From NCBI RefSeq assembly GCF_024298905.1, contig NZ_CP101154.1:1736001-1800000 (forward strand): a DNA stretch of 64,000 bases, given 5' to 3'. Source of the stretch: Natronomonas marina. Its GTDB lineage: Archaea; Halobacteriota; Halobacteria; Halobacteriales; Haloarculaceae. A model generated the notes under the pieces. It was not told the DNA's origin. It saw only the letters and a program-made list of their open reading frames with translations, and did not search any database. Within the stretch, counting starts at the first letter, position 1. The number at the start of each line of letters is the position of its first letter. Position numbers and translations under genes: made by a program. Below, one piece after another: positions 3,744 through 64,000 of this stretch.

Positions 3744-5102
3744 ATGGAGCTGTTCGGGACCGCGGGCATCCGCGGCGACGCCGAAAGCGAGGTGACGCCC
3801 TCCTTCGCGCTTGCGGTCGGGCGTGCCGCCGCGGCGGACGGCGAGGAGTTCGTCGTCGGCCGCGACGGCCGCGAGACCGGCCCGGCGCTGGCCGCCGCCG
3901 TCGAGGCGGGCCTGGAGAGCGGCGGCGCCGACGTGGTTCGCGTCGGGCAGGTACCGACGCCGGCGCTGGCCTTCGCGTCCCGCGGCCGACGGGGAATCAT
4001 GGTGACGGCGAGTCACAACCCGCCGGCCGACAACGGCCTGAAACTGTTCGTCGACGGCACGGAGTACGACCGCGAGACCGAGCGAGCCCTCGCCGGCCGC
4101 GTCGAGACGGGGGCCGACCCCCTCGCGTGGGACCGCTGGGGCTCGGCGACCCGCGAGGCGATACTCGACGACTACCGGGCGGCCGTCGCCGACTACGCCC
4201 GCGACCGGGTCGGCGACTGCGCCGGCGTCGACGTCGCCGTCGACTGTGGCAACGGCGTCGGGGGACTGGCGACGCCGCAGGTGCTCCGCGAACTCGGTGC
4301 CGACGTGCTCGCCCTGGAAGCCAACGTCGACGGCCACTTTCCGGCCCGGCCGTCCAAGCCGACGCCGGAGACCCTCGCGAACCTCCGCTCGTTCGTGGCC
4401 GACGGCGACTGCGAACTCGGCATCGGCCACGACGGCGACGCCGACCGCACCGTCGTGGTCGACGGCGACGGCGAGGTGGTCCACGAGGACACGGTGCTGG
4501 CGATACTCGGGTCGTTCTACGTCCGGACGAGCGACGCCGCCGACCCCGTGGTCGTCACGACGCCGAACGCCTCGGGACGCATCGACGACCGCGTCGAGGC
4601 TGCGGGCGGCCGCGTCGAGCGGGTCCGTCTCGGCGCGCTCCACGAGGGCATCGACGCCGCCGTGTCGGCCGGCGGTGACGACACCACGGTCGTCTTCGCC
4701 GGTGAGCCCTGGAAGCACGTCCACACCGCCTTCGGGCCGTGGATCGACGGCGTCACGAGCGCCGCCGTCCTCGCCGCCCTCGTCGCCCGCGATGGCCTCG
4801 ACGACCTCCGGGCCCCCGTCGCCGAACGGCCCTACCGGAAGGAGAGCGTCGACTGCCCCGACGGCCGAAAGGAGCGGGCCATGGGTCTCCTCGAACGTCG
4901 GCTCCCGGAGGCGTTCCCCGACGCCGACGTCGACACCGAGTACGGCGTCCGGCTGACGTTCGAGGACGGCGCCTGGACGCTGGTCCGGCCGAGCGGGACC
5001 GAACCCTACGTCCGCGTCTACGCCGAGAGCGACGACGTCGACGCCCTGACCCGCGAGGTGGTCGCGGTCGTCGAGGGCGCCGTCGCCGACGCCGGGGAGT
5101 AG
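3744..5102 (+). CDS. glmM: Phosphoglucomutase/phosphomannomutase family (probable phosphoglucosamine mutase)
   Basis: 452 residues with all four alpha-D-phosphohexomutase motifs. The phosphoserine loop TASHNPP has its serine at residue 90. The Mg-binding loop GHDGDADRT has Asp at 230, 232 and 234. A sugar-binding loop of the GEPWKH type lies near residue 320, and the phosphate-binding RPSGTEP starts at about 415. The start ATG at 3744 gives the usual MELFGTAGIRG beginning, and a weak TATA-like element (about 3712-3718) sits 27 nt upstream. The reaction is interconversion of hexose 6- and 1-phosphates. The GxxTAGIRG start and overall length fit GlmM best, but specificity among glucosamine, glucose and mannose cannot be read from sequence. 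Confidence 0.88.
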   Translation: MELFGTAGIRGDAESEVTPSFALAVGRAAAADGEEFVVGRDGRETGPALAAAVEAGLESGGADVVRVGQVPTPALAFASRGRRGIMVTASHNPPADNGLKLFVDGTEYDRETERALAGRVETGADPLAWDRWGSATREAILDDYRAAVADYARDRVGDCAGVDVAVDCGNGVGGLATPQVLRELGADVLALEANVDGHFPARPSKPTPETLANLRSFVADGDCELGIGHDGDADRTVVVDGDGEVVHEDTVLAILGSFYVRTSDAADPVVVTTPNASGRIDDRVEAAGGRVERVRLGALHEGIDAAVSAGGDDTTVVFAGEPWKHVHTAFGPWIDGVTSAAVLAALVARDGLDDLRAPVAERPYRKESVDCPDGRKERAMGLLERRLPEAFPDADVDTEYGVRLTFEDGAWTLVRPSGTEPYVRVYAESDDVDALTREVVAVVEGAVADAGE

Positions 5103-38038: not shown

Positions 38039-38049
38039 CCGCGAAGAAT

Positions 38050-38158
38050 GCTCGCTAGGGGATTTGAACCCCTGTCATCGGCTGTCCTCGTCTCAAAGGG
38101 CCGTCCCTTTTAAGCACTCGAAAGGCCGATATGATTGGCCGGGCTACACCAAGCGAGC
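38050..38158 (-). tRNA. tRNA-Glu(UUC), with intron
   Basis: On the minus strand the 109-base gene folds as a cloverleaf: acceptor GCTCGCT/AGCGAGC, D arm GTGTAGCCCGGCCAATCAT, anticodon stem TCGGC/GCCGA, and T arm AGGGG-TTCAAAT-CCCCT. No CCA is encoded, and the base after the acceptor is A (discriminator). The loop CTTTCGA gives anticodon TTC once the 35-base intron (38084-38118) between G37 and A38 is removed. The mature length is 74. G at position 37 is unusual for tRNA-Glu, where A is common. A TATA-like box lies about 33 bases upstream (38187-38195). Confidence 0.92.
38084..38118 (-). other. tRNA-Glu intron with bulge-helix-bulge splice motif
   Basis: The minus-strand sequence fits an archaeal BHB. 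Anticodon-loop CTTT pairs with GAGG of the intron as a 4-bp helix (C-G, U.G, U-A, U.G). The 3-base bulge CG|A marks the 5' splice and AC|A the 3' splice. Inside the intron AAAGGG and CCCTTT form a hairpin around ACGG. The splice endonuclease is not in this window. Archease, which stimulates the RtcB ligase, is encoded at 33.1 kb. Confidence 0.8.
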
Positions 38159-54633: not shown

Positions 54634-55929
54634 TCAGTCGCCGCGCAGTTCGTTCATGTGGTCGATGCGGGCCTGCAGCAGTTCGGCCGTCCCGATGTCG
54701 TGACGGACGCGAAGCCCCTCCTCGCCGGCCCGCTGCAGCGCGTCCTCGGCGATGGCCTCCGCCTCGGTGATGGTCCCGGCGCGGCCGACGACGGCGAAGG
54801 AGCGGGAGGTGGTCGTGTAGACGCCGTCCTCGCGAGCGTCGACGCTGGCGTAGAACAGGAGCGCCTCGCCCGCCGAGTCGGGGTCGATGTTCACCCTCGC
54901 GCCGGCGGTGGGGTCGGTCGGGTAGCCGTCGGGGACGGCGTACTTGCAGACGGTCGCCTGATTCGAGAACTCCAGTTCCGGCAGGTCCTCGCCCTCACGG
55001 GCCGCCCGCAGCACCGACACGAAGTCCGTCTCCAGGACGGGCAGCGTGTTCATCGCCTCGGGGTCACCGAAGCGGGCGTTGAACTCGACGACCTTCGGTC
55101 CCTCGGCGGTCAGCATGAACTGGCCGTAGAGGATGCCCTTGTAGTCGTCCATCGCCCCGACGACGGCGTCGATAATCTCGACGGCCGCGGTGTAGTCGTC
55201 CTCGGTCATGAACGGCAACTCGAAGGTGGCGTCCGAGTACGACCCCATCCCGCCGGTGTTGGGGCCCTCGTCGCCCTCGTAGGCGCGCTTGTGGTCCTGG
55301 ACGGCCGGCGAGACGCGGTACTGGCCGTCGGCGACGAAGGCCTGAATCGTGAACTCCTCGCCGACGAGTCGCTCCTCGAGGACGTACTCCTCGTAGTCGC
55401 TCTCGAGGACGTACTCGACACCCTCCTCGGCCGTAATCTGGTCGCCGATGACGCGGACGCCCTTGCCGCCGGTGAGTCCGCGCGGCTTGATGGCCAGGTC
55501 GCCGTCGTACTCGCGGATGTAGTCGGCGGCGGCCTCCGGGTCGTCGAAAATCTCGTAGTCGGGACAGCCGGGAATCGCGTTGTCGGCCATGAACTCCCGC
55601 TGGAAGGCCTTGTCGGTCTCGATGCGTGCCTGTTCGGCGCGCGGGCCGAAGGCGTAGACGCCGGCGTCGTCGAGGGCGTCGGCGACGCCGGCCTCCAGCG
55701 CCGACTCGGGACCGATGACCGCAAGCGTCGCGCCGACCGCCTCGGCGTAGGCGACGATTGCGTCGGCGTCGGTCTCCTCGACCGTCTCGAAGCCCTCGGC
55801 CAGCGAGTCGATGCCGGGATTGCGGTTCGAGGCGCAGGCGTACAGTTCCGCGTCGGCCGAATCGTCAACCGCGCGGGCGATGGCGTGCTCCCGTCCGCCG
55901 CCGCCCACGAGGAGAACCGTCTCGGTCAT
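54634..55929 (-). CDS. purD: Phosphoribosylamine-glycine ligase
   Basis: 431 residues of the ATP-grasp family. The N-domain has VLLVGGGGREHAIARAV. The ATP-grasp core has GLTGGKGVRVIG, GEEFTIQAFVADG and EFNARFGDPEAMN, which carries the metal-binding Asn/Asp. The B domain follows (PTAGARVNIDPDSAGEALLF). It makes glycinamide ribonucleotide in purine synthesis. No other pur genes are beside it. It is 85 bases upstream of nothing but the SCP2-like gene on the same strand, so the two may be cotranscribed. Confidence 0.95.
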   Translation of the reverse strand: MTETVLLVGGGGREHAIARAVDDSADAELYACASNRNPGIDSLAEGFETVEETDADAIVAYAEAVGATLAVIGPESALEAGVADALDDAGVYAFGPRAEQARIETDKAFQREFMADNAIPGCPDYEIFDDPEAAADYIREYDGDLAIKPRGLTGGKGVRVIGDQITAEEGVEYVLESDYEEYVLEERLVGEEFTIQAFVADGQYRVSPAVQDHKRAYEGDEGPNTGGMGSYSDATFELPFMTEDDYTAAVEIIDAVVGAMDDYKGILYGQFMLTAEGPKVVEFNARFGDPEAMNTLPVLETDFVSVLRAAREGEDLPELEFSNQATVCKYAVPDGYPTDPTAGARVNIDPDSAGEALLFYASVDAREDGVYTTTSRSFAVVGRAGTITEAEAIAEDALQRAGEEGLRVRHDIGTAELLQARIDHMNELRGD

Positions 55930-61197: not shown

Positions 61198-62184
61198 ATG
61201 GAACGGGGCATCCTCGGAACCCTCGGGTCGCCACTCGTGCAGGTCGAGTCGCCCCGTGGGTCGGTCGTCGCGGCGAAGGTGGAGTCGAAGAACCCCGGCG
61301 GGTCCGCGAAGGACCGGCCGGCGGTGGCGATGGTCGAGGCCGCAGAGCGGTCCGGCGAACTCGGTCCCGGCGACCGCATCGTCGAGCCTACGTCCGGCAA
61401 CACCGGCATCGGGCTCTCCATGGTCGCCGCCGCGAAGGGCTACGACATCACGGTCGTCATGCCAGCCTCGAAGTCGCCCGAGCGACGGCGGATAATGGAG
61501 GCCTACGGCGCGGACCTGGAACTCGTCGAGGGGGACATCTCCGACGCCAAAGAGCGCGCCGACGAACTGACCGACTCGGAGGGGGCGGTCCAGGTCCGGC
61601 AGTTCGAGAACCCGGCCAACCCCGAATCGCACTACCGGACGACCGGTTCGGAGATACTCGAGGCGGTCGGCGACCGGACGGTCGACGCCCTGGTGGCCGG
61701 CATCGGCACCGGCGGCACGATAACCGGCGTCGGCCGCCGCCTCCGGGAGGCGTTCCCCGAGATAGAGGTCGTCGGCGTCGAACCCGAGGGCAACGAGGTG
61801 CTGACGGGCGGCGAGACGGGCGAGGACGCCTTCCAGGGGATGGGGCCCGGGTTCGTCTCGCCGAACCTCGACCGCGAACTGCTCGACGACGTGGAGGTGG
61901 TCGGTCTCGACGCCGCGGAGACGGCGTGTCGCCGCCTCGCCCGCGAGGAGGGCGTCCTCGTCGGCCAGTCCTCGGGGGCGTCGCTGGTCGCCGCCAGACG
62001 GGTCGCCGAGCGCCTCGTCGAGGAGCGCGGCGTCGACGCCGAGGCCCCCACGCCGGACAACAAGGTGGGAATCCTCGACGACGAGCCGCCGGCACGCGAG
62101 CCGATTCCCGAGGAGTGTCCGCTCGTCGTCACGGTCTTCTGGGACTCCGGGGAGCGCTACATGTCGACCGGGATGTTCGATTGA
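61198..62184 (+). CDS. cysK: Cysteine synthase (O-acetylserine sulfhydrylase)
   Basis: 328 residues. It begins ERGILGTLGSPLVQVESPRG. The PLP lysine is K38 in GGSAKDRPA, the Asn loop is PTSGNTGIGLS near residue 63, the phosphate loop is GIGTGGTITGVG near 168, and the C-terminal Ser is in GQSSGASLVAARR. The reaction is O-acetylserine + sulfide to cysteine. The C-terminal extension with EECPLVVTVFWDSGERYMSTG is the usual archaeal end. It pairs with cysE (33.8 kb). The TATA box at 61168 predicts leaderless mRNA. Confidence 0.93.
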   Translation: MERGILGTLGSPLVQVESPRGSVVAAKVESKNPGGSAKDRPAVAMVEAAERSGELGPGDRIVEPTSGNTGIGLSMVAAAKGYDITVVMPASKSPERRRIMEAYGADLELVEGDISDAKERADELTDSEGAVQVRQFENPANPESHYRTTGSEILEAVGDRTVDALVAGIGTGGTITGVGRRLREAFPEIEVVGVEPEGNEVLTGGETGEDAFQGMGPGFVSPNLDRELLDDVEVVGLDAAETACRRLAREEGVLVGQSSGASLVAARRVAERLVEERGVDAEAPTPDNKVGILDDEPPAREPIPEECPLVVTVFWDSGERYMSTGMFD

Positions 62185-62235
62185 GGCGGTGACGGCGGAG
62201 CCGTCGATACCCCTCAGCGTCATTCGAGGTGGAGC

Positions 62236-62331
62236 CTCCGACCTCAAGGAGCGAGCGTAGCGAGCGAGCAGGTCGGAGAGGACAGCGAGGCGCTACGCGC
62301 CTCGGGCCGTGCAAACGGGCCTTCGGCCCGT
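62236..62331. repeat. Three consecutive stem-loops between cysK and the TnpB element
   Basis: Perfect arms ctccgacct (62236-62244) and aggtcggag (62270-62278) enclose 25 bases that contain repeated gcgagcg. A second has gaggcgc/gcgcctc (62287-62303, 3-base loop), and the third acgggcc/ggcccgt (62315-62331, 3-base loop). No coding is supported in 62185-62410. They may be terminator-like or a structured element linked to the IS. Confidence 0.65.
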
Positions 62332-62410
62332 GAGCAGAAACCGACACGGTCCTACACCAACCACGCTCGATGGCTGGTCGACTCCCCCACCTAACCATTA
62401 CTAATTTGAG

Positions 62411-63664
<1,254 letters not shown>

Positions 63665-63749
63665 ATCTTATATGTAGCTTGGGATATTATTAAAAATTGG
63701 GGGCGGCCTGCTACTGTAGCGTGGTTTGCTTTCCAGTTGTCGGCTTCAT

Positions 63750-63769
63750 CCCACGGCTAAAGCCGTGGG
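63750..63769 (+). repeat. 20-nt palindrome, copy 2
   Basis: The same 20 bases in the same orientation as copy 1, 51 bases before the ATG of the second tnpB. On the minus strand the flank could read THGFSRG, as at the end of a TnpB, so it is either a 3' remnant of another copy or the left end of the second element. Confidence 0.8.
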
Positions 63770-63819
63770 TTTTCGCCTCGTACTTTCTATAAAGACATGA
63801 ATCTACATCTGAAACACGG

Positions 63820-64000
63820 ATGGAGGTACGTCGCACCATCCCCGTCAAACTCGACGTAGCCGACAGCGACGCTGACCTCCTCCACGAAACCATCTCCGAG
63901 TTCCTCTGGGCCGCCAACTACGTCGTAGACCACGCGTGGCAAGGTGAGTACAAGACCACAAGAAAATCCAAACTTCAACGCGAAACCTACGACGACGTGC
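63820..64000 (+). CDS. TnpB (IS200/IS605 family), N-terminal part, cut by window edge
   Basis: From ATG 63820 the frame reads EVRRTIPVKLDVADSDADLL, then TISEFLWAANYVVDHAWQGEY, clearly related to the N-terminus of the first TnpB ([31 protein letters not shown]) but not identical. A TATA-like tataaa at about 63789-63794 is 27-30 nt upstream. The RuvC and zinc residues lie beyond the window. It is divergent from the first tnpB, 155 bases between their starts. Confidence 0.88.
   Translation, partial: MEVRRTIPVKLDVADSDADLLHETISEFLWAANYVVDHAWQGEYKTTRKSKLQRETYDDV

Follow-up and report, generated by a model that had tools for sequence, protein, structure and literature searches.

Within 96 nucleotides of Natronomonas marina DNA, three perfect stem-loops stand in tandem between a cysteine-synthase-like gene and genes for TnpB, raising the question of what such a cluster is. 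The original prediction, made from the letters of the window (the whole stretch of 64,000 nucleotides analysed here), offered a structured RNA, a REP-like family or a transposon-linked element; it proposed a genome-wide count of the motif and a search for co-occurrence with IS elements, for covariation and for transcripts, and expected a simple terminator should the sequence be single-copy and untranscribed. Our reading, to which we give a probability of about 85%, is that hairpin 1 is the left palindrome of an IS605-type element while hairpins 2 and 3 form an independent, non-autonomous element of 54-56 nt that is dispersed in haloarchaea and often lies in genes.

Results

Geometry and fold of the cluster

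The stem-loops have the place and number originally given, with arms of 9, 8 and 7 bp rather than 9, 7 and 7 (Table 1). The loop of hairpin 1 does hold the gcgagcg-type repeats described for it (GAGCGAGCGTAGCGAGCGAGC). The neighbours of the cluster, called cysK and TnpB, are as described: a cysteine-synthase-like ORF, recognized by eye from sequence motifs without a family search, ends before the cluster, and two TnpB genes follow it. Beyond its perfect inner stem hairpin 3 continues into a longer helix, P3, whose 2x2 internal loop is GA/GA in most copies and AA/GA in the window copy.

Table 1. Features of the locus, in window coordinates.
Feature	Position	Strand	Remarks
Cysteine-synthase-like ORF	61198..62184	+	Host gene, outside the element
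TCAGC, probable target motif	62214..62218	+	Directly 5' of the IS left end; by eye against other left ends
Left-end region of the outer IS200/IS605-type (IS1341-like) TnpB element	62219..62405	+	Other tnpB genes have related left ends on their 5' side
Hairpin 1	62236..62278	+	Arms 9, loop 25; probable left subterminal palindrome of the outer IS
Double-hairpin element (hairpins 2 and 3)	62283..62338	+	56 nt, after GA at 62281-62282; empty site in L102 and L103
Hairpin 2 (helix P2)	62286..62304	+	CGAGGCGC TAC GCGCCTCG; arms 8, loop 3
Helix P3 (whole hairpin 3)	62310..62336	+	Outer TGC..GCA pairs, 2x2 internal loop, inner ACGGGCC..GGCCCGT stem
Hairpin 3, perfect inner stem	62315..62331	+	Arms 7, loop 3
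Nested TnpB element	62406..63788	-	Ends inferred from the uninterrupted relatives L102, L103 and L107
Right-end hairpin of the nested element	62414..62433	-
Left-end hairpin of the nested element	63750..63769	-	Foot GATGA^AGCCGACA
Start of the outer tnpB	63820..64000	+	444 aa, runs to window-equivalent 65154; PF07282 6.4e-23, PF01385 2e-07

In this GC-rich window three hairpins in 96 nt are unremarkable by chance, and geometry alone is weak evidence. At least three such hairpins within 96 nt are found at two places in the window, and one or more places of this kind turn up in 15 of 40 dinucleotide shuffles (mean 0.4). The other place, 4185-4280, resembles GC-rich coding sequence. The fold energy of 62184-62345 (162 nt) has a z of -2.59, with 3 of 200 shuffles folding equally well or better. 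The cluster stands above chance because of homology, not geometry: a model of hairpins 2 and 3, R1, matches the window copy at 62277-62346 with 88.6 bits (E 1.7e-20), a score to be read in the light of this copy being one of the 16 sequences from which R1 was built. The next match in the window, on the opposite strand of the same palindrome, reaches 16.5 bits.

Hairpin 1 and the two TnpB elements

We read hairpin 1 as the left subterminal palindrome belonging to a TnpB element of the IS200/IS605 type (IS1341-like), because TCAGC-like motifs precede the left ends of its relatives and nearly all right ends close with TT[T/C/G]AC and have a trinucleotide to match. A 156-nt query run as DNA against the host genome returned 43 matches at E<=10; apart from the window the best were two copies with 72% identity over query positions 34-156, the rest being shorter. 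Fourteen loci with the hairpin-1 motif were examined there (L031-L044). A right-end motif is present in 13, all except L033, and a motif search flagged a TnpB-like ORF between or beside the ends in 12. L033, with no TnpB-like ORF flagged by this search, has a TnpB zinc-domain match downstream; in L039 only about 300 nt separate the two ends, as in a PATE. By eye, the part shared by the other left ends is preceded by TCAGC, TCACC, TCAAC, TTAGC or TTAAC, and in L035 by CGAGC. Thirteen of the 14 right ends, several of them copies of one another, finish by eye at TT[T/C/G]AC with the matching trinucleotide 5' of the hairpin foot. AAAG goes with TTTAC, GAAG with TTCAC and CAAG with TTGAC in 13 of 14 right ends by eye, L039 being the misfit, and such guide-like pairings are less clear at the left ends. 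An end motif with a matching trinucleotide at the hairpin foot resembles the IS608 scheme (PMC5934647).

The right end of the outer element falls at window-equivalent 65177, past the window edge. Both ends of the element carry subterminal palindromes, hairpin 1 on the left and a right-end one seen in L031. Seven ORFs that were scanned, the outer one included, score above the cut-off for PF07282; they also match PF01385 at E<=1e-5, with two falling short of the cut-off for that family. Y1 transposases bind single-strand hairpins such as subterminal palindromes. The host genome has 37 PF07282 matches versus one PF01797 (Y1 transposase) match, at C1:2768405-2768761 and with an internal TGA; no Y1 tnpA lies within the outer element, which is therefore termed IS1341-like. 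The likeness to an IS200/IS605 (IS1341-type) left end lies in the subterminal palindrome, the TnpB gene and the target-like motif at the border; the window's left end differs in carrying an inserted module and a nested second element, with the only Y1 match elsewhere in the genome. Near-terminal palindromes and nesting of IS605-type elements in haloarchaea have already been described (PMC3119063). The outer element's right end (L118, G000:C1:1801085-1801154), just past the window, has its own double-hairpin copy inside the loop of the right-end stem, and so does a second right end in this genome (L117, C1:1079226-1079295).

The nested element lies on the opposite strand, between the left end and the outer tnpB. 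Where the window reads TAAT, then 62406-63788, then ATAAAGA, the uninterrupted relatives L102, L103 and L107 read GTATAAAGG or GATATAAAGG. The nested tnpB is split by one in-frame stop, and both pieces, scanned separately, match Pfam; the foot of its left-end hairpin is the unoccupied form of a site that is filled in L181. The uninterrupted relatives have, by eye, a TATA-like box between the hairpins and the start of tnpB, and since they keep this stretch whole, the nested element entered the TATA-like box of the outer tnpB. Judged by eye in these relatives, the hairpins lie upstream of the likely tnpB promoter.

Hairpins 2 and 3 as a separate element

Hairpins 2 and 3 also occur apart from the IS end. 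In a search of 79 genomes, the host included, 41 gave a match, and many matches cover only the query from about position 60 onward, that is, hairpins 2 and 3. Conversely, two left ends from the same genus (L102 and L103), 93-94% identical over the first 70 nt of the window's left end, are without the module. The empty site reads GGTCGGAGAGGA^AACCGACATGG, as against GGTCGGAGAGGA[CAGCG...GCAGA]AACCGACACGG when filled. The element has the consensus YAGCG-P2-GGRCCRTKCGA-P3-GAGMAGA, 54-56 nt long. Its borders were followed in 62 copies from 60 loci at the top of the ranked order-wide list, mostly one per genome. The left junction is GA in all three empty-site pairs but in 37 of the 62 copies, with AG in 16, and in most copies (48/62) the bases leading into the first stem are GATAG, AGTAG or GACAG.

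The helices covary. In an alignment of 16 copies all cells of the 17 pairs are standard, and P2 changed on both sides in 4 of 8 pairs; these 16 were chosen for R1 by eye, not blindly, from 29 sequences for equal length of hairpin 2, with P2 complementarity not demanded, and the 29 had been picked by a pattern demanding P3 pairing, so that P3 covariation in this first alignment is partly built in. In the alignment of 62 copies, which was fitted to the R1 structure and leans towards it, 10 of 17 pairs changed on both sides and 99.7% of cells are paired versus 89.1% in shuffles. None of 500 shuffles reaches the observed value on any of five measures, and sliding the partners abolishes the signal. 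A comparison of the site with Rfam gave no family at gathering score and two sub-threshold matches (E 1.1 and 3.1).

The element is multi-copy and IS-linked. In the host genome R1 has 13 matches at E<=0.1, of which 10 have an E below 0.001, and the six best lie at four left ends and two right ends of IS605-type elements. Across the host's order 217 of 243 genomes have a match at E<=0.001 and 193 reach 1e-6; at most 20 candidates were scored per genome, making copy numbers lower bounds. Among 196 genomes drawn from the phylum 29 match, 28 of the host's order (its own included) and one other, weakly (3.8e-4), a contrast that may be favoured by many other orders probably being less GC-rich. An exact pattern run against a collection of species genomes found 53 stretches, 52 under haloarchaeal titles and one titled only 'Euryarchaeota archaeon'. 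A single 68-nt query gave no match in phage records, nor did one exact pattern in viral contigs. The double-hairpin element is dispersed through most haloarchaeal genomes searched.

Copies occupy sites of three kinds: some sit in the feet or loops of the end hairpins of IS605-type elements, some elsewhere between genes, and some within protein-coding genes. The loci opened correspondingly lie in intergenic DNA, at IS ends and in open reading frames, with some copies nested or tandem; by eye, L077, L082, L204, L213 and L214 appear to be nested in, or tandem with, other double-hairpin copies. In the metagenome-assembled genome QS_8_65_32 nine loci (L294, L307, L321, L332, L334, L335, L339, L340 and L342) join hairpin 3 to a different flank outside any clear CDS, as does L331 in QS_3_64_16; the nine or so copies in QS_8_65_32 are perhaps a variant family.

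Copies inside protein-coding genes

Coding copies were defined by a three-position GC test on the flanks, asking for the sense strand, the peptide frame and an open frame. A codon test on GC3 only, over 200-nt flanks, had called 17 of the 62 copies CDS; it confused strands and was replaced. By the GC test both flanks are coding, sense and open in the peptide frame in 35 of the 62 copies and antisense in none; 2 have different frames on the two flanks, 9 have one coding flank in the peptide frame, and 16 are non-coding or mixed. L158, which passed, was dropped for its TnpB hit and 99-aa frame, leaving 34 gene copies out of 62, a share that leans high because loci already fetched, among them the IS-end copies of the host genome, G005, G017, G020 and G037, were excluded from the 60. 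The 2-kb loci of the 34 gene copies contain no TnpB-like hit. A span of 68 nt (54-nt element) is seen in 33 of these 34 versus 1 of 9 copies at IS ends (Fisher p 5e-7); of the nine, eight were assigned through a TnpB hit and L187 through the motif at its end.

Two further samples, which overlap with each other and with the 62 copies, are less affected by the selection of loci. In two genomes, taking all listed copies including weak ones (33 of the 37 counted), 13 are sense CDS in the peptide frame, 2 have the peptide shifted by an indel, 1 is antisense and 17 are unclear or non-coding. Of the 53 exact-pattern stretches 26 are sense CDS with the peptide frame open, none is in another sense frame, 1 is antisense, 4 are at contig edges and 22 are other. 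Across the samples the codon test places two gene copies on the antisense strand, and roughly half of the copies lie outside clear CDS.

In genes the insert adds about 18 amino acids without breaking the frame. The peptide is hydrophilic, for example DSAERSSADRSSGQSPRE or DSEARSASGRASGRSPRAE; it is the Ser-, Asp- and Glu-rich frame that is kept, and the other frames read like RGAKLRGPFERAEPARR. Filled and empty forms of the same gene were found twice. In a gene that we take from its sequence to encode an ArgB/LysZ-like kinase, L219 and L218 read GGTGAAGACGTGG where L247 has 54 nt more; in another species of that genus (L220) the insert is present without the first GAAGAC. In a TrpB-like gene L250 reads TTCGTCGACGACGAG and L248 has 54 nt more, the insert being present in 2 of 7 genomes of the genus. 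Ten host proteins were scanned with Pfam, and in six of them a domain continues across the insert: a class I tRNA synthetase, a SufBD core protein, a PALP enzyme, an AMP-binding enzyme, CobN and an AAA protein (L165, where AAA_19 and AAA_30 do so); in the other four the insert falls between domains or outside the best stretch. Plasmid records gave 10 matches: one record is without annotation, and in the nine annotated ones one match lies outside a listed gene and eight in a named CDS, those of CobN, merA (5), a mismatch-repair protein and enolase. Three of these were opened, and each has its copy on the sense strand. A single insertion inherited by descent may account for the five merA copies. 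In the window's own genome a degenerate in-frame copy (L123, G000:C1:3420998-3421062, minus strand) lies in what is presumably the gene for a dihydrolipoamide acyltransferase (E2), its product reading like the catalytic domain, and L125 (C1:1684753, plus strand) is another in-frame candidate.

Discussion

Two different things make up the cluster: the left-end palindrome of an IS605-type element and an independent double-hairpin element. A competing explanation would make all three hairpins one extended IS605-type left end, hairpins 2 and 3 being its second hairpin. All three do occur together in four left ends of the host genome (L031, L032, L033 and L037), and IS608, ISDra2 and IS605 have a second hairpin 3' of the main palindrome (PMC5934647). 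Against it, hairpins 2 and 3 are missing as a clean indel from five related left ends (L034, L035, L036, L038 and L039), the 93-94% identical left ends are without them, and the module recurs in right-end loops and in the 34 gene copies free of a TnpB-like hit. This alternative is unlikely and already largely refuted by the gene-internal copies; one form of it survives, in which the IS end has taken over the module as its second hairpin.

The guide RNA of TnpB elements is expected at the right end, and a copy of the module does lie within the right-end stem of L031 and L045. Together with the stable fold and the covariation, this would suit a structured RNA or leader regulating tnpB, or a copy of the guide-RNA scaffold. 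We regard this as very unlikely: the TATA-like box seen by eye in the uninterrupted relatives is 3' of the hairpins, which would leave them outside the transcript from the tnpB promoter; no Rfam family reaches its gathering score; and the gene-internal copies have no tnpB nearby. An intrinsic terminator of the cysK-like gene, with the hairpins some 50-150 nt past its stop codon, is the least likely of the explanations: a scan for terminators and sigma-70 promoters (the latter not archaeal) found nothing at the hairpin site, and the element is dispersed in unrelated contexts. The single-copy simple terminator of the original prediction falls with the 13 matches in the host genome. The three broader options were partly right in that the sequence is multi-copy, IS-linked, covarying and loosely REP-like; its two-part nature and the in-frame gene copies were unforeseen.

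Among known repeats the closest in kind are the Rickettsia palindromic elements, bacterial palindromic repeats of about 150 bp that lie in frame in unrelated genes and each encode a conserved peptide (PMC10969869). The double-hairpin element shares with them the palindromes, the in-frame gene copies and the conserved peptide; compared by description, it differs in being archaeal, a double hairpin of 54-56 nt, and present in IS605-type end hairpins as well. Also comparable are small transposase-free repeats of Haloquadratum, SMR-A and PATEs. SMR-A inserts without duplicating its target, in palindromes near the ends of PATEs and of IS605-type elements (PMC3119063). The double-hairpin element is likewise a small transposase-free haloarchaeal repeat inserted in such palindromes. 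SMR-A, again by description, is about 110 bp long with terminal inverted repeats, none of which is seen by eye in the 54-56 nt element, and the passages of PMC3119063 consulted do not describe in-frame gene copies, which the double-hairpin element has. REP sequences are short dispersed palindromes of 20-40 bp with a GTAG or CGTC tag, some inside genes (PMC3733652), and to this extent similar. Unlike what the extragenic criterion for REPs implies, 34 of 62 double-hairpin copies are in CDS; GTAG precedes the first stem in 17 of 62 (AGTAG 14, GGTAG 2, CGTAG 1), the others having ATAG, ACAG and so on, and, where REPs go with RAYT transposases, no association with the presence of PF01797 was seen. 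Mitochondrial double-hairpin or repetitive hairpin elements (for example PMC2800124) share small hairpin-forming repeats and differ in belonging to organelle genomes. A search of the open PMC literature, with subscription journals mostly outside its scope, found no description of such double-hairpin elements in haloarchaea among the best-ranked papers.

For the independent double-hairpin element we observe presence or absence as a unit at empty sites, a covarying double hairpin, a wide distribution and a preferred frame. At this locus the insertion point would be the 3' foot of hairpin 1, directly following a GA. Presence and absence as a unit, the conserved double hairpin and the placement in IS ends, which act as single strands, together suggest movement as folded ssDNA, with the enzyme presumably supplied in trans. 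The genome comparisons identified no transposase as mobilizer and recorded no transposition. A Y1 transposase was set aside as the obvious candidate, although one could still serve: PF01797 occurs in 159 of the 243 genomes of the order, and its presence does not follow the element. It is found in 12 of 20 listed model-negative genomes (6 further negatives fall outside the list), while G005, G050 and G164 have strong element copies and no PF01797 match.

The strand and frame bias is most simply explained by selection, given the abundance of Ser, Asp and Glu in the frame that is kept and the kind of peptide, shown above, that the others give; insertions in genes that were out of frame or antisense would have been lost. 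It may well be that a haloarchaea-wide selfish double hairpin has been invading genes with a single orientation and frame, often at the GA of an Asp or Glu codon, and has given 18 extra amino acids to several enzymes, among them a TrpB-like protein, an ArgB/LysZ-like kinase, a class I tRNA synthetase, SufBD and CobN. Protein-coding palindromes would in that case extend to a second domain of life, and the end hairpins of IS605-type elements would be among their non-coding sites. In the boldest form of this proposal the insertion machinery, acting on mRNA or the sense strand, would set frame and strand, rather than selection alone.

Protein-coding palindromes are best known from Rickettsia; to meet them again throughout an archaeal order would mean that very short selfish DNA is able to seed new peptide segments in core enzymes repeatedly. 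As genetics is available in haloarchaea, mobility, translation of the insert and its cost are directly testable. For annotation, the same double-hairpin unit in genes, TnpB left ends and right-end stems can mislead calls of repeats, non-coding RNAs and protein families.

Elsewhere in the window, Rfam and not ARAGORN calls a 110-nt tRNA at 38049-38158 (minus strand), and ARAGORN and not Rfam calls a 97-nt tRNA-Trp at 55659-55755 (plus strand); both are perhaps intron-containing genes.
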